A DNA stretch of 42,516 nucleotides from Candidatus Fermentibacterota bacterium (GTDB lineage Bacteria > JAFGKV01), in the NCBI GenBank assembly GCA_030620115.1, contig JAUXFG010000011.1, positions 1 through 42,516 on the forward strand. The letters run 5' to 3'. The notes beneath the pieces were generated by a model, which worked only from the letters and a program-made list of their open reading frames with translations, was not told the origin of the DNA and ran no database searches. Shown in pieces: positions 1,503 through 42,380 of the stretch. Every line of letters begins with the position of its first letter. Position 1 is the first letter of the stretch. Made by a program: the position numbers and the translations under genes.

Positions 1503-2020
1503 GAGATGTTTCAGGACAGGCCGGGAAGTGGTTTTCGCTTTCGGAATCCTCCTTGCAATGACTGAGGCCCCGGGGGTCATCGCGAGCGGTAGCGCGGCGA
1601 TCTCAATGAGCGGATGAGATTGCTTCGTCGCTACCCTCCTCGCAATGACAGGCGGAGGAGCTGGTCATCGCGAGCGGTAGCGCGGCGATCTTAATGAGCG
1701 GATGAGATTGCTTCGTCGCTATCCTCCTCGCAATGACAGGCGGAGGAGCTGGTCATCGCGAGCGGTAGCGCGGCGATCTCAATGAGCGGATGAGATTGCT
1801 TCGTTGCTATCCTCCTCGCAATGACAGGCGGAGGAGCTGGTCATCGCGAGCGACAGCGCGGCGATCTCAATTGAGGGCGGATGAGATTGCTTCGTTGCTA
1901 CCCTCCTCGCAATGACTGCGGGTGGCACCACGGTTCCGGGATCTCTCTACGGGATCTTCTATTCCTATCATGAGCCCTAGCGTTAAGCCGAGACCGTAAA
2001 ACGAGAGAATGAAACATCCC
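1503..2020. mobile_element. MITE-like element, copy A, with four internal tandem units
   Basis: The ends are inverted repeats: GAGATGTTTCA at 1503-1513 and TGAAACATCCC at 2010-2020 (10 of 11 paired). They match the ends of the complete copy at 23998-24201. The left arm (AGGACAGGCC) and the last 100 or so bases (TTCCGGGATCTCTCTACGGG through CCGTAAAACGAGAGAA) are shared with that copy. The flanks 1495-1502 and 2021-2028 match at only 6 of 8 positions, consistent with an old target duplication. The interior is four copies of an 88-bp palindromic unit. No transposase is encoded, so any movement would need one supplied elsewhere. Confidence 0.8.
1576..1927. repeat. four tandem 88-bp palindromic units
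   Basis: GTCATCGCGAGCG recurs at 1576, 1664, 1752 and 1840, an exact 88-base period. Each unit can fold on itself because GTCATCGCGAG...GTAGCG pairs imperfectly with CGCTAC...CTCGCAATGAC. Its reverse complement translates to the CHCEERSDEAIS peptide, a well-known false protein in many genomes. Units differ by a few bases. There are no unique spacers, so this is not a CRISPR array. Confidence 0.9.
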
Positions 2021-7110: not shown

Positions 7111-7552
7111 GGAATCGTCATTGCAATGACTGAGGCCCGGGGTCATCGCGAGCACTTCGATTTTGCTCCCTCTGGGGCGTAGGCCCAACGGGCCGGAGGC
7201 AGCATAAACTCCGCGCGGCGATCTCAATTGAGCGGATGAGATTGCTTCGTCGCTACGCTCCTCGCAATGACAGGGCGTGGAGCTGGTCATCGCGAGCGGG
7301 AGCGCGGCGATCTCAATTGAGCGCATGAGATTGCTTCGTCGCTATTCTCCTCGCAATGACAGGTGGTGGAGCTGGTCATCGCGAGCGGGAGCGCGGCGAT
7401 CTCAATGGGCGCATGAGATTGCTTCGTCGCTACGCTCCTCGCAATGACAGGGCGTGGGACCACGGTTCCGGGATCTCTCTACGGGATACTGTATTCCTAT
7501 CGTGAGCCGTTGCGCGAGACCGAGACCGTAAAACGAGAGAATGAAACATCCC
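7111..7552. mobile_element. MITE-like element, copy B, left end missing, three tandem units
   Basis: The right end TGAAACATCCC (7542-7552) and the last 100 or so bases match copies A and C. The left part begins abruptly near GGAATCGTCATTGCAATGACTG, matching the inside of copy A; the GGGATGTTTCA end is not seen, so this copy is truncated. GTCATCGCGAG units start at 7142, 7286 and 7375 (89 bases between the last two). The first unit is interrupted by about 59 bases of other sequence at 7154-7212. The element lies between the divergent 5' side of the hydrolase gene and the 3' end of the histidine kinase gene. Confidence 0.75.
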
Positions 7553-17623: not shown

Positions 17624-18410
17624 TGTAGTTACCCTTTTCCCTGAAATGTTCGGCGCGTTGGCCTCGAGCATTCCGGGAAGGGCGCAGCAACGTGGGAATC
17701 TTGTCCTTCGGGTGCACACGCCGCGGGACGAGACAGAGGATCTTCATCGGACGGTAGACGATTCCCCTTATGGGGGCGGCGGCGGCATGGTTCTCAAGCC
17801 GGAGCCGATTTTCCGTACGGTGGATTGCATACGTGAGAAGCACGGTGAGGGCCATGTGTTGCTGGTTTCTCCGCAGGGTCAGGTACTCACTCAGGCTCTT
17901 GTGGAGGAACTAGCGGGTCGGCGCCACTGGATACTCATTTGCGGCCACTACAAGGGTGTGGACGAAAGGATACGGGAACACCTCATTGATCAGGAAGTTT
18001 CCCTGGGTGATTACGTGTTGAGCGGTGGTGAGCTTGCGGCCATGGTCCTGATCGATGCCGCTACCAGGCTACTCCCCGATGTGGTGGGCAATCCGGCTAC
18101 CGTTTGGTCAGATTCATTTACCACAGGGCTTCTTGATTGCGCACACTACACGCGGCCGGCGATATTTCGTGGCTGGCGCGTACCTGATGTGTTGCTCTCG
18201 GGCGATCATGGGGCAGTTGCAAGTTGGCGGAGGGAGCAGGCGCTGCTTCGTACATTGCGTCGGCGGCCGGACCTATTGGATATGGTGGAGCTGACGAACC
18301 AGGATATTGGGTTCTTGAGAGAACACGGCTGGTCTCGGGATGTGGATAGGGACCATGCCGAAACAAGAAAAAAGAACAACGGTTGCTGGGTTGATGGGTT
18401 GATGGGTTGA
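17592..18410 (+). CDS. trmD: tRNA (guanine-N1-)-methyltransferase TrmD
   Basis: 272 residues. VDVVTLFPEMF, DDSPYGGGGGMV, ICGHYKGVDERI and DYVLSGGELAAMV are the conserved segments of the knotted SPOUT fold, which methylates G37 of tRNAs with AdoMet. I chose the ATG at 17592 inside rimM; a TTG lies directly before it. The extreme C-terminus (CWVDGLMG) is encoded by the first units of a GGGTTGAT tandem repeat, which also supplies the stop codon, so the tail is probably not ancestral. Confidence 0.96.
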   Translation: MGSSKPALQVDVVTLFPEMFGALASSIPGRAQQRGNLVLRVHTPRDETEDLHRTVDDSPYGGGGGMVLKPEPIFRTVDCIREKHGEGHVLLVSPQGQVLTQALVEELAGRRHWILICGHYKGVDERIREHLIDQEVSLGDYVLSGGELAAMVLIDAATRLLPDVVGNPATVWSDSFTTGLLDCAHYTRPAIFRGWRVPDVLLSGDHGAVASWRREQALLRTLRRRPDLLDMVELTNQDIGFLREHGWSRDVDRDHAETRKKNNGCWVDGLMG

Positions 18411-18476
18411 TGGGTTCAGAGGTTGAGAGGTTCAGAGGTTGAGAGGTTCAGAGGTTCAGAGGTTCAGGGTTAGTGA
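18388..18476. repeat. short tandem repeats (GGGTTGAT, then GGTTCAGA/GGTTGAGA)
   Basis: About four units of GGGTTGAT pass into about eight units of GGTTCAGA or GGTTGAGA. The run begins inside trmD and ends before the inverted-repeat element at 18518. It is a microsatellite-like tract and may vary in length between strains. Confidence 0.85.
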
Positions 18477-22554: not shown

Positions 22555-22729
22555 AGTTCGGGAGAGGATTTCTGTGGGAGGAGAAGTTCGAGACCCGCCT
22601 TCGTCGGATGACTTCGGCGTGGCAAGCAAAGTTCGAGACGAAGTTTTTGAACCGTGAGTCAGGTTGAATGGTGTTCAGGTTGCAGGTGCAACTTCTGTGT
22701 TTCGTGAAGATAGCTCATGGAGGGACGGG
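22555..22729. repeat. intergenic AAGTTCGAGAC repeats
   Basis: GAAGTTCG occurs several times (for example GAAGTTCGAGACCCG and AAAGTTCGAGACGAAGTT). The same motif is found near 14770-14810 and 28030-28072, always intergenic. No gene is supported; the glgC frame is open from 22664, but its ribosome site is at 22719-22724. Confidence 0.6.
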
Positions 22730-23986
22730 ATGGAACGATCGACCATCGTTGCGGTATTGGGAGGCGGGCGGGGCACCAGGCTCTTCCCCCTCACGAAGTT
22801 CAGATCAAAACCTGCCGTGCCTCTCGGGGGGAAGTACCGGCTCATCGACATCCCGCTCTCCAATTGCATCAACTCCGGGCTCCGTGAGATCTATGTGCTT
22901 ACCCAGTTCAATGCAGGATCTCTCACAAGGCATATCAGCCGAACCTACAAGTTCGATGGATTCACCAAAGGGTTCGTGGATGTGCTTGCCGCTGAGCAGA
23001 CTCTGAAGCATAGCGACTGGTTTCAGGGAACCGCAGATGCCGTGAGGAAGAACCTCTACCGTTTTCTCGGCGGGGGGCATGAGGATATCCTTATCCTGGC
23101 GGCGGATCATCTCTACAGGATGGACTTCACAGAGATGTTGAGGACACATGTCCAGCAGGGAGCCGATATCACGCTTTCGTTGATTCCCGTGGTTCCGCAA
23201 GATGCCTCCCGATTCGGTCTCATGCGTCTTGACGATAATCATCGAGTGGTGGGGTTTGTCGAGAAGCCAAAGAACCCACATCTCCTGGACGGTTTCTCCG
23301 TGACGAGAGGAGGGAACGAGGTCTTCCTGGCCTCCATGGGCATCTATGTGTTTCGTCTTGGTGTTCTTGAGGAGATGCTGGAGGGAGGCACGGAGGTCGA
23401 CTTCGGCAAGGAGGTCATACCCAAAGCAATCGGCGGCCATAAAGTGGTGGCTCATACTTTTGATGGCTATTGGGAGGATATTGGAACCATTGAAGCGTTT
23501 CACCGGGCGAACCTTGCGCTCGCACATCTTGAACCGCAGTTCAGGCTCTACAGCCAAGGCAATCCCATGTTTACACGCGCCCGATTCTTGCCGGGCACCG
23601 TGATTGATGGGTGCAGGATTCAGCAGTCCATGATAGCTGATGGTTGTATAATGCTCGGTAAAAGCATCATCAATTCCATCATCGGCATTCGCGCGAAGGT
23701 AGGGCTCGGGACGGTCATCGAAGACAGCTACATCATGGGGGCCGACTTCTACGAGCTTCGAGAACCCGCCGGCCCTCAGATCGATGAGGGAATGCCAAGG
23801 ATCGGGATCGGGAACAACTGTGTCATCAAAAGCGCAATCATCGACAAGAATGCGCGCATTGGCGACAACTGCAGGATAGAGAACGTCAAGGGTATCGAGG
23901 AGGACGAAGGCAGTTATTATGTGATCAAGGACGGGATTGTGGTGGTGGAGAAGAATGCCGTGATTCCCTCAGGGACCATTATCTGA
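22730..23986 (+). CDS. glgC: glucose-1-phosphate adenylyltransferase
   Basis: 418 residues from the ATG at 22730, with GGAGGG five bases upstream. The N-terminal nucleotidyltransferase has LGGGRGTRLFPLTKFRSKPA, IDIPLSNCINSG and WFQGTADAVRKN; a C-terminal left-handed beta-helix (GCRIQQSMIADGCIM, VIKSAIIDKNARIG) follows. It makes ADP-glucose for glycogen. No glgA, glgB or glgP is in the window, so it stands alone here. It is followed directly by the complete MITE-like copy C. Confidence 0.96.
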   Translation: MERSTIVAVLGGGRGTRLFPLTKFRSKPAVPLGGKYRLIDIPLSNCINSGLREIYVLTQFNAGSLTRHISRTYKFDGFTKGFVDVLAAEQTLKHSDWFQGTADAVRKNLYRFLGGGHEDILILAADHLYRMDFTEMLRTHVQQGADITLSLIPVVPQDASRFGLMRLDDNHRVVGFVEKPKNPHLLDGFSVTRGGNEVFLASMGIYVFRLGVLEEMLEGGTEVDFGKEVIPKAIGGHKVVAHTFDGYWEDIGTIEAFHRANLALAHLEPQFRLYSQGNPMFTRARFLPGTVIDGCRIQQSMIADGCIMLGKSIINSIIGIRAKVGLGTVIEDSYIMGADFYELREPAGPQIDEGMPRIGIGNNCVIKSAIIDKNARIGDNCRIENVKGIEEDEGSYYVIKDGIVVVEKNAVIPSGTII

Positions 23987-23997
23987 CTGCGATCTTC

Positions 23998-24201
23998 GGG
24001 ATGTTTCAGGACAGGCCGGGGTCATCGCGAGCGGGAGCGCGGCGATCTCAATTGGGGGCGGATGAGATTGCTTCGTTGCTACCCTCCTCGCAATGACTGA
24101 GGGTGGCGCTATGGTTCCGGAATCTCTCTACGGGATTCCATATTCCTATCTTGAGCCGTAGCGCTGGGCCGAAACCGTAAAGCGAGAGAATGAAACATCC
24201 C
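23998..24201. mobile_element. complete 204-bp MITE-like element, copy C, with perfect ends
   Basis: GGGATGTTTCA (23998-24008) and TGAAACATCCC (24191-24201) are perfect 11-bp inverted repeats. They are flanked by CGATCTTC on both sides (23990-23997 and 24202-24209), a perfect 8-bp target duplication. The interior has one copy of the palindromic unit found four times in copy A and three times in copy B, then the shared right arm. It begins only 12 bases after the glgC stop. The 8-bp duplication and GGG ends would suit an IS1595- or ISL3-like transposase, but this is inference. Confidence 0.9.
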
Positions 24202-24220
24202 CGATCTTCATCCATAGAGT

Positions 24221-27558: not shown

Positions 27559-27684
27559 AGGATGATACGCCTGCGGCTTCCAGCTCGTAAAGCCTACGGC
27601 TCGGAGAGGGTCCTCAGTCGCAAGCCTCGCAGCCAGAACCATCTCGGCGGCCTCGTTTCGAAACCCGGTGAGAAGTCCGGGCTA
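27559..27684. mobile_element. partial copy of the TA-flanked inverted-repeat element
   Basis: From GGTCCTCAGTCGCAAGCCTC to GAGAAGTCCGGGCTA it closely matches 39257-39337. The left part keeps GATACGCCTGCG but has an extra 30 or so bases (CTTCCAGCTCGTAAAGCC...). The left inverted end is missing, so it is a fragment or a variant. Confidence 0.65.
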
Positions 27685-39153: not shown

Positions 39154-39338
39154 TTAGCCCGAACTTCTCACCGGCTTTCGGCTATAACCGCCGATATGGC
39201 TCCGCCTGCTTCGTTACGCTCCATCAGCCTTCTCGGCGTATCGCAGAGGATACGCCTGCGAGGTCCTCAGTCGCAAGCCTCGCAGCCAGAACCATCTCGG
39301 CCGCTTCGCTTCGAAAGCCGGTGAGAAGTCCGGGCTAA
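39154..39338. mobile_element. 185-bp MITE-like element with 27-bp inverted ends, abutting the rib operon leader
   Basis: TTAGCCCGAACTTCTCACCG... (39154-39180) and its complement (39312-39338) pair over 27 bases with one mismatch. TA stands at both tips inside TTA/TAA, which would fit the 2-bp TA duplication of IS630/Tc1-mariner elements. The interior is non-coding, with smaller stems such as GGCGTATC/GGATACGCC. A partial copy lies at 27559-27684. The element starts 19 bases from the ribD start codon. Confidence 0.8.
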
Positions 39339-39691: not shown

Positions 39692-41836
39692 CTATATTCT
39701 TGTTTTGGCACGCATGACGCGTTTGACACCTGGCACCGCCTCGATGGCTTTCCGGATCTTGGCAAGATGGTTGGTATTCCGGACCGCGAGTTGCAGATGG
39801 ATATGGAGCTCGTCATGTTCGGTCTGAACATGTAAGTTCTTGAATTCCGCGCCGGCTTCTTCCACGACGGGCTCGAGCTCACCCAGGACACGTTTTTTGG
39901 GGACAGCCTTGATAAAGAGGCTCGTTGAGAACATCTCGTTCTGCCCTACATCCCATTCCACCTCAAGCCAGCGATCCGGGTTCCCAGTCAATGCATTGGC
40001 ACATTGACGCCGATGTATGCTTGCCCCACGCCCCCTGGTTATCAAGGCAACGATACGGTCGCCTGGAATCGGGTTACAGCATCGCGCAAACCGGACGGCG
40101 AGATCCCGAAGTGCTCCGAGCCGGATCCCACGTGTGGTCTTCCTGCTCTGGACGATAGATTCTCTTTCCGAATCAAGAACCTCATGGGGCTCCTCCTCAT
40201 CTTTCGCCCCAAGAGCAGCCAAGAGCTGGCTCGTTGAGGCCTTGCCTGCTCCGATGGCGATAAAGAGCTCACCAGAGGTGGGAAATCCCATAGTATGGGC
40301 CATATTCTCCCATGCACTAGGAGTCCTCGGCAGGGTGATGGTTGCCTTTCTCAGCTCCTTGACGAGGGTTGCCCGTCCTCTGGCCTGCTGCCGTTGGCGT
40401 TCAGCCTGACTCAGGTAACGACGGATTTTCTGCCGGGCATTGCTCGTGGTGACCCGGGTGAGCCAATCCTGGGTGGGATACGCAGTTGATGACGTAAGGA
40501 TTTCGACTCTGTCGCCACTCTGGAGAAGAAAATCAAGGGGCACGGCCTTGCCATTGACACGGATGCCGTTGCAGCGAAGGCCAAGGTCGGTGTGGAGAAG
40601 GAATGCAAAGTCCAATGCGGTGGCGCCGGCCCTCATGGGGAAAAGCTCCCCCTTGGGTGTGAGAACCATGACCTCGTTGCTGATGAGTCCCTGCCGGAAT
40701 AATCGCAAGATCTCCCGCGGGTCCTTGCTGCTCTCCCCCATGTCCATGAGATCACCAAACCACTCCAGGTGTTCTCGCAGTGAATAACTCTCGCCTTCTT
40801 GCTCGAGATGGTAGCGCCAGTGGGCAGCCACGCCGTATTCCGCGATGGCATGCATCTCCTTGGTTCTGATCTGGAGATCGACTACCTGCCCCTCGGGCGT
40901 TCGAACCGTGGTGTGGATGCTTCTGTACATGTTCGGTTTCGGGCGAGCGATGTAATCCTTGAAGCGGCCGTCGATGGGGAGCCACGAGGCATGGACGACT
41001 CCAAGACTGCGGTAGCATGCATCCACAGAGTCGGTGACCATACGGATCCCGGCAAGATCCCAGATCTCCCTGAATGTCTTGTGTTCCCGGCGGATCTTCC
41101 GATATATGCCATAGAAGTGCTTGGCCCTTCCCGTGATCTGGGCCGTGAGATCCTGGGCCGCGAGCATCTCTCGAAGCGTCTCGATGAGTTTGTCGATGGC
41201 CTCTTCACGCTCCCTCCGGCGCGCGGAGACGAGTCTCTTGATCTCCTGGTAGGAGAGTGGATCGAGTTCCTTGAATGCAAGGTCCTCCAACTCGGTCCTG
41301 AATCGGCGCATGCCCAGGCTATGAGCGAGGGGCGCATAGATCTCCAGCGTTTCGGCTGCGATCCTTTGTCGTTTATCCGGATCCAATGAGGAAAGGGTCT
41401 GCATGTTGTGCAGACGATCGGCAAGTTTGATGACTATGACGCAGACATCATCAGCCACTGCCAGAAGAAGACGCCGCAAGTATTCCGCCTGTCGAGCCTC
41501 TCGGTGTGGCATCTGCAGGGAGGAGAGCTTGGTGAGACTTGCCACGATGTCCGCAATTCGAGGACCAAAACGGGAAAGGATCGTTTCTAGGTCAACGCTG
41601 GTATCCTCCACGCAGTCGTGGAGTAGCGCCGTGGCTACCGCATCGCTCCCTTGACGGAGTTCCGCAACCTGAAGCGCCACGGCAATCGGGTGTGTAATAA
41701 AGGGTTCAAGAGAGGCCCTGGTTTGTCCCGCATGGGCGACAGAGGCGAATCGAAAGGCCTCAACAAGAAGCGGGAGGTCGAGATCAGGATCGAATGCCTG
41801 CACCCGCTGAATGAAGTCTTGCTCTGAAAGAATCAT
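39692..41836 (-). CDS. relA: bifunctional (p)ppGpp synthetase/hydrolase (RelA/SpoT family)
   Basis: 714 residues. HD hydrolase domain: H49 in FITHPIAVA, H73-D74 with E77-D78 in LLHDCVEDT, then KLADRLHN. Synthetase: TGRAKHFYGIYRKI, AGIRMVTDS, FKDYIARPKPNMYRSIHTTV. TGS: MVLTPKGELFPMRAGATALD. ACT at the end: SLFIKAVPKKRVLGELEPVV. Both activities look intact, so it probably makes and degrades ppGpp. The start ILSEQDFIQRVQAFDPD matches the family. The ATG at 41836 lies two bases after the predicted 3' end of rnpB and has no Shine-Dalgarno; an open frame extends 54 bases further but only into the RNA gene. Confidence 0.96.
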   Translation of the reverse strand: MILSEQDFIQRVQAFDPDLDLPLLVEAFRFASVAHAGQTRASLEPFITHPIAVALQVAELRQGSDAVATALLHDCVEDTSVDLETILSRFGPRIADIVASLTKLSSLQMPHREARQAEYLRRLLLAVADDVCVIVIKLADRLHNMQTLSSLDPDKRQRIAAETLEIYAPLAHSLGMRRFRTELEDLAFKELDPLSYQEIKRLVSARRREREEAIDKLIETLREMLAAQDLTAQITGRAKHFYGIYRKIRREHKTFREIWDLAGIRMVTDSVDACYRSLGVVHASWLPIDGRFKDYIARPKPNMYRSIHTTVRTPEGQVVDLQIRTKEMHAIAEYGVAAHWRYHLEQEGESYSLREHLEWFGDLMDMGESSKDPREILRLFRQGLISNEVMVLTPKGELFPMRAGATALDFAFLLHTDLGLRCNGIRVNGKAVPLDFLLQSGDRVEILTSSTAYPTQDWLTRVTTSNARQKIRRYLSQAERQRQQARGRATLVKELRKATITLPRTPSAWENMAHTMGFPTSGELFIAIGAGKASTSQLLAALGAKDEEEPHEVLDSERESIVQSRKTTRGIRLGALRDLAVRFARCCNPIPGDRIVALITRGRGASIHRRQCANALTGNPDRWLEVEWDVGQNEMFSTSLFIKAVPKKRVLGELEPVVEEAGAEFKNLHVQTEHDELHIHLQLAVRNTNHLAKIRKAIEAVPGVKRVMRAKTRI

Positions 41837-41838
41837 GA

Positions 41839-42243
41839 GACGGCCCCATAAGCCGAGTTCTGTTCCCCGGAGGTCCGGGGTGGCGATCATTCATCTGGTC
41901 CCGCCGTCACCGGCGGGATCGAGCGGTCTACCCGGAGGTGGTGCGAGTCGGGGCTGCTCATCCCTCCCTATTCGGCCTTGCTCCGGGTGGGGCTTGCCTG
42001 GCTCCCGGGGTCGCCCCCGGGACCGGTAAGCTCTTACCTTACCTTTTCACCCTTACCCAGCACTCAAGCCTTGCCAGGGCTTGGCGTGACGCGACCATCA
42101 CAAAGCTTGAGTGCTGGGCGGTTTATTTTCTGTGGCGCTTTCCGCCGGTCACCCGGCCTTCGCGTTATGAAGCACCCTGCCCCGTGGAGCTCGGACTTTC
42201 CTCCCCCTCGCTTTCGCGAAGAGACGATCGCCTGGGGCCGTCC
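41839..42243 (-). ncRNA. rnpB: RNase P RNA, bacterial type A
   Basis: On the minus strand the 5' end GACGGCCCC pairs with the 3' end GGGGCCGUC to form P1. Inside are GAGGAAAGUCCGAGCUCC (P4 and core), a long P3-like start region, ACAGAAAAUAAACCGCC, and near the 3' end AGAUGAAUGAUCGCC and ACAGAACUCGGCUUAU, all conserved in type A RNase P RNA. It is about 405 bases, normal for the class. It cuts 5' leaders from tRNA precursors. It lies between a zinc-ribbon gene and rel, all on the minus strand. The ends are placed from P1 pairing and may be off by a few bases. Confidence 0.96.
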
Positions 42244-42380
42244 CATGAGAAAGTGAGTTCATGCATAGGCATAGAACTGCGCGAAGCGCGTCGTGAAATA
42301 TCCACGCGTATCAGCATACAAGAAAGCATGAAAGATCGGCAGGCGTCAAGTCATGGAGATGGGGAGATGGGAAGTGCGGG
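42244..42380 (-). promoter_or_regulatory. region between zinc-ribbon gene and rnpB, probable rnpB promoter
   Basis: 137 bases with no gene. On the minus strand it holds TTGACG, TATGCT and TATGCA hexamers, but none is spaced as a clean sigma70 promoter from the predicted RNA start. It also has a GCGCGAAGCGC-type palindrome. It must carry the rnpB promoter unless rnpB is made from the upstream transcript. Confidence 0.35.

Follow-up and report, generated by a model that had tools for sequence, protein, structure and literature searches.

As a MITE-like element that has trapped a tandem repeat, BrickBuilt of Porphyromonas gingivalis is a direct precedent for the element described here (PMC4596501). 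A second described system, QMITE2 of Coxiella burnetii, is a MITE of about 190 bp that has direct repeats of 7-9 bp and contains a REP, according to the account given of it in a review (reviewed in PMC10969869). REPs tagged by CGTC or TGTC are characterized, in the source's description of their traits, by a C/TGTC tag, a stem that starts with A-T pairs and a CCA-like tail, and, according to the authors, they have no apparent transposase of their own (PMC3733652).

Here we describe a gene-less mobile element from a poorly known host lineage (Candidatus Fermentibacterota), which carries a palindrome common to many bacterial phyla. The element was examined in a contig of 42,516 nucleotides (the window, meaning the whole stretch of DNA analysed) and in the genome to which the window belongs. 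The letters across the locus 23990-24209 read gactg, CGATCTTC, GGGATGTTTCA ... TGAAACATCCC, CGATCTTC, atcc. The element of 204 bp thus ends in perfect 11-bp inverted repeats, GGGATGTTTCA on the left and TGAAACATCCC on the right, with a perfect 8-bp direct repeat on both flanks, and the coordinates given for this copy in Table 1 are exact to the base. A reading made from the sequence only had taken this locus for a complete MITE-like element with perfect ends and a perfect 8-bp duplication. This description holds to the base, and exact matches of GGGATGTTTCA number 67 in the own genome (34 forward and 33 reverse), as compared with 0 + 0 for the reversed-pattern control. The same reading gave 204 bp as the size of the unit, which proved to be that of an internally deleted copy, as most members of the family are 249-255 or 274-277 bp, and tandem palindrome units of 88 bp lengthen the family up to 518 bp.

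Table 1. Positions of the element copies and their parts in the window.
Feature	Position	Strand	Remark
Left target-site duplication CGATCTTC	23990..23997		3 bases past the stop codon of the glgC-like gene
MITE copy, 204 bp, without coding capacity	23998..24201	+	internally deleted form of the family of about 250/276 bp
Left terminal inverted repeat GGGATGTTTCA	23998..24008	+	likeness to the left arm of other copies extends to 24020
Palindrome unit (module B), ERSDEAIS palindrome	24020..24097	+	GTCATCGCGAGC...GAGATTGCTTCGTTGCT...CTCGCAATGAC; matched in other phyla
Right arm (module C)	24098..24201	+	not palindrome-derived; matches in own genome only
Right terminal inverted repeat TGAAACATCCC	24191..24201	-	inverted partner of GGGATGTTTCA
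Right target-site duplication CGATCTTC	24202..24209		perfect repeat of the left one
Second copy, 518 bp	1503..2020	+	four 88-bp palindrome units at 1575-1916
Third copy, left-degenerate	7111..7552 (about)	+	left-arm remnant, about 3 palindrome units (7213-7451), right end intact

The second copy in the window has 1 and 0 mismatches in its two ends and is flanked by the 8-bp duplication AGAGATTG/AAAGATTC, which matches at 6 of 8 positions. Other features of the window include a bacterial RNase P RNA of class A at 41832-42245 on the minus strand (283 bits) and, at 39154-39338, a pair of 27-nt inverted repeats that are 96% complementary and 131 nt apart. The latter region has a 76-bp segment in common with 27609-27684 (95%), which represents another dispersed repeat.

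From the own genome, a 4.10-Mb draft of 296 contigs, copies of the element were fetched as stretches and dissected. In this 4.1-Mb assembly the MITE family numbers about 80-90 loci; BLAST with the 204-bp element found 57 matching stretches, the near-full-length ones at 81-92% identity. A complete element is laid out as the left end GGGATGTTTCAGGACAGGCC, the left arm, the palindrome or palindromes, a unique right arm and TGAAACATCCC. The left end carries an optional insert CTTCGACTGAGCTCAGGACAGGCC in some copies, and the left arm includes a degenerate half-palindrome. The palindrome itself is 75 bp and is present at least once in every complete copy (one unit in the window copy, 1-4 in the others), with several palindromes forming 88-bp tandem units. 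The right arm, of about 95-104 bp, terminates in TGAAACATCCC.

A consensus of 250 bp was obtained from 13 copies with lengths of 240-260 bp, and the near-complete copies (n = 35) range from 201 to 518 bp with length clusters at 249-255 and 274-277 bp; all 35 are too short to hold a transposase gene. The two shortest, the copy in the window and one of 201 bp on C260, both miss most of the left arm. Because the nearest relatives of these two short copies are different full-length copies, on C218 (93.5%) and C262 (90.5%), the left-arm deletion probably happened twice, apparently at a GGCC-GGG microhomology. The median pairwise identity among the 35 copies is 84%, which indicates that the family is old and makes its present-day activity doubtful.

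Some copies depart from this layout. In many copies (for example L005, L018 and L024), the left arm carries an optional insert, CCCTTCGACTGAGCTCAGGACAGGCC, always at one position; it resembles another interspersed repeat, and part of it is also found outside elements, at C10:56882-56907 and C80:3937-3961. The copies on C23, C96, C198, C203 and C241 have the first palindrome arm broken at one fixed position by ACTTCGACTTCGCTC, an interruption that reflects either a subfamily or gene conversion. The GGGATGTTTCA end at C126:238 (L091, from 238) leads into another inverted repeat (AGATTCTTCGCTCCCTGCGGTCGCTCAGAATG ... CATTCTGAGGGAGCGGAGCGACTGAAGAATCT) instead of the ERSDEAIS palindrome. This repeat may be a second cargo of the element end, although the end showed no partner on the right.

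The genome was scanned for end pairs with at most 2 mismatches per end that lie roughly 150-700 bp apart. Such a search for paired ends with 8-bp direct repeats, proposed with the original description, yielded 42 pairs with a sharp peak of flank identity at 8 bp: an assumed duplication of 8 bp gave an identity of 0.58, and lengths of 4-7 and 9-12 bp, which act as a control within one set of sequences, gave 0.20-0.33. Flank bases matched at 7 or more of 8 positions in 15 of the 42 pairs, as compared with 0-2 pairs within one mismatch at other lengths. In many copies, the duplications are imperfect or missing.

When the flanks of the copy on C29 were joined with one copy of the target-site duplication, they gave alignments that cross the junction on C274, C260 and C293 (84-85%). 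Similarly, the joined flanks of the copy on C61 aligned to six places, on C33, C203, C182, C264, C23 and C78 (77-84%). The uninterrupted matches carry one 8-bp site each and no element. These empty sites are paralogous, being other copies of the target repeat rather than orthologous loci. Where the flanks were joined, the open reading stretches that span the junction had a median of 150 codons, compared with 318 at random points nearby. Such stretches stand in for genes only approximately; their shortness at junctions agrees with intergenic insertion. The family thus combines shortness without a transposase gene, terminal inverted repeats, a fixed-length duplication, and dispersed copies with empty sites. 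It is a real MITE family, and its ends are not a product of chance. Separately, the 8-bp tandem repeats GGTTGATG/GGTTCAGA (window 18373-18476; C29, C274, C260 and C293) constitute another dispersed repeat family, one that the MITE uses as a target.

Within the own genome, nearly all sampled palindromes of the ERSDEAIS type lie inside the MITE or its remnants. Both arms are complete in 37 of the sampled palindrome clusters, and the majority of the rest retain one arm at least in part. Away from block edges, just 6 clusters lack any trace of the two arms; these counts are biased by sampling partly through the element itself, and the clusters reached through the palindrome pattern include the exceptions. 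The view that the palindrome is held inside a defined, non-autonomous transposable unit is borne out.

The distribution in other genomes is different for the palindrome and for the element. The element was searched in 60 genomes, the own genome and 59 others (two of the others being of the same family), and 10 of the 60 were counted as matching. Matches outside the own genome fall on the palindrome, except for one weak match (query 17-70), and the right arm was untouched by any match in the 59 other genomes. Eight other genomes, including two from the same family, each contain GGGATGTTTCA 0-3 times. As judged from these comparisons, the arms and ends appear to be absent from the 59 other genomes, including the two of the same family, and an exact 20-base left-end pattern had no match outside the own genome across 84,980 species. 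A 33-base core of the palindrome, on the other hand, was found by pattern scan in at least 118 stretches from many phyla. Among the matches listed are Bacteroidota, Omnitrophota, Clostridia, Chloroflexota, Alphaproteobacteria (notably Bradyrhizobium), Patescibacteria, Planctomycetes, Atribacteria, WOR-3, KSB1, Spirochaetes, Fibrobacteres and others. Elsewhere the palindrome is a free-standing inverted pair of 72-180 bp with sharp borders GTCATTGCGAG and CTCGCAATGAC; no pair of GGGATGTTTCA ends was found at 97 such loci among the matches listed, and no direct repeat of any length from 2 to 12 bp at 61 free-standing pairs. Because these ends and duplications are not found elsewhere, the element ends do not explain the cross-phylum distribution. 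The proposal that the MITE gives a mechanism for the spread of the palindrome is thus right for copying inside the own genome, and only there. A literature search for the ERSDEAIS peptide and the palindrome letters returned chance matches only.

The free-standing form raises the possibility that the palindrome is itself mobile, in the manner of a REP, by an IS200/RAYT-type tyrosine transposase that makes no target duplication, with the GGGATGTTTCA ends being incidental. Its solitary occurrence elsewhere with the sharp GTCATTGCGAG/CTCGCAATGAC borders and no duplication would fit, as would the four Y1_Tnp genes of the own genome. However, the 8-bp duplication in the own genome sits at the GGGATGTTTCA ends, nearly all of the palindromes sampled there lie between the arms, and neither the palindrome nor GGGATGTTTCA ends were found within about 1.5 kb of the four Y1_Tnp loci. 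We therefore regard self-mobility of the palindrome as quite improbable.

Duplications of about 8 bp are produced by the IS256, ISL3, IS1595, IS6 and ISKra4 families. The draft assembly had no match to IS256 (PF00872), ISL3 (PF01610), IS1595 (PF12762), IS6 (PF13610) or ISKra4 (NF033572), while positive controls in named genomes matched in the same searches; derivation of the element from any of these families was set aside because no transposase of theirs is found in the draft genome. A sixth family, DDE_Tnp_1, is present with eight genes, none of which has a pair of matching ends. A transposase gene with the same ends, which the sequence-only reading had proposed to look for, was therefore not found among the six families searched in the draft genome. 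Autonomous partners of MITEs are frequently lost or, in assemblies, collapsed, and a partner supports a MITE assignment without strictly defining it. Here the autonomous partner may have been lost or may be collapsed in the draft assembly.

A glgC-like gene (22664-23986) directly precedes the window copy, and a subtilase gene lies beyond it, convergent with the glgC-like gene. This placement just after glgC and ahead of a convergent gene, together with the strong folding of either strand (z -4.4 and -3.6), could suggest a functional RNA or terminator element selected between convergent genes. However, the window copy matched neither a terminator-like site nor an RNA family, and the high copy number, duplications and decaying copies suit a selfish element in which any regulatory effect would be secondary, which makes this explanation very improbable. 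The element may have a side effect on transcript ends; of the two readings, selfish spread is the simpler. Spread as a BIME-like mosaic repeat, by recombination and gene conversion rather than transposition, is scarcely credible, for although the variable number of tandem units, the mosaic left arms and the optional inserts (CTTCGACTGAGCTCAGGACAGGCC) show recombination among copies, recombination makes neither fixed-length duplications at unrelated sites nor empty sites of the kind seen at two repeats, and the 8-bp spike largely refutes it.

It is very probable that the element represents a species- or genus-restricted MITE that is moved in trans by a DDE-type transposase and carries a captured, cross-phylum, REP-like palindrome as a passenger. 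We infer this mode of mobilization because of the element ends and the fixed length of the duplication: a DDE-type transposase supplied in trans would most likely cut and insert the element with an 8-bp stagger. Capture of the REP-like palindrome between the ends would have taken place early in the history of the element; the palindrome would then have multiplied in some copies as 88-bp tandem units, and would have been carried passively to many, mostly intergenic sites. The palindrome thus looks like a captured passenger. A broader idea, that recurrent capture by MITEs amplifies transposase-less REP-like palindromes (of the ERSDEAIS or C-TGTC type), with one local MITE per lineage whose decayed ends leave free-standing palindromes, seems to us unlikely.

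These results separate two easily confused levels, namely the copying of the palindrome within a genome by the MITE and its presence across many phyla. For the cross-phylum palindrome no target duplication and no associated transposase were found, and the MITE gives no account of that spread. When such genomes are annotated, a run of the false ERSDEAIS peptide can turn out to be a decayed MITE.

Among the closest known systems, BrickBuilt and the present family both carry a trapped repeat through the genome of one species; in both, the number of units between the leader and tail arms varies, and many copies are partial (PMC4596501). The BrickBuilt unit is 23 nt with no reported matches outside the species, whereas the unit here is an 88-bp palindrome found in many phyla; BrickBuilt has IS5-like ends and an inconsistent duplication length, whereas the duplication here is consistently 8 bp (PMC4596501). 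QMITE2 has the REP-in-MITE arrangement in common with the present family, and its truncated copies resemble REPs, but its REP is of the GTAG type, its ends are different, and the review's account of it describes no 88-bp tandem palindrome units (PMC10969869). By description rather than by consensus, the palindrome resembles the C/TGTC-tagged REPs: the free-standing copies read (T)GTCATTGCGAG...GAAGCAATCCA, starting with (T)GTC-AT... and often ending in ...AATCCA, occur in inverted pairs and, like those REPs, have no known transposase (PMC3733652). The regular stem of 8-9 bp and loop of 4-5 nt given there for CGTC/TGTC-tagged REPs differ from the stem of the present palindrome, in which only five uninterrupted terminal pairs (ATTGC/GCAAT) are seen by eye (PMC3733652). 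The Chunjie MITE of Geobacter uraniireducens, as far as its description goes, is likewise intergenic, with a length of 178-235 bp and dozens of full and partial copies, and has inverted ends and direct repeats as in the present family. Thus, the evidence supports well a new MITE family whose cross-phylum passenger is unusual, but not a new kind of element.
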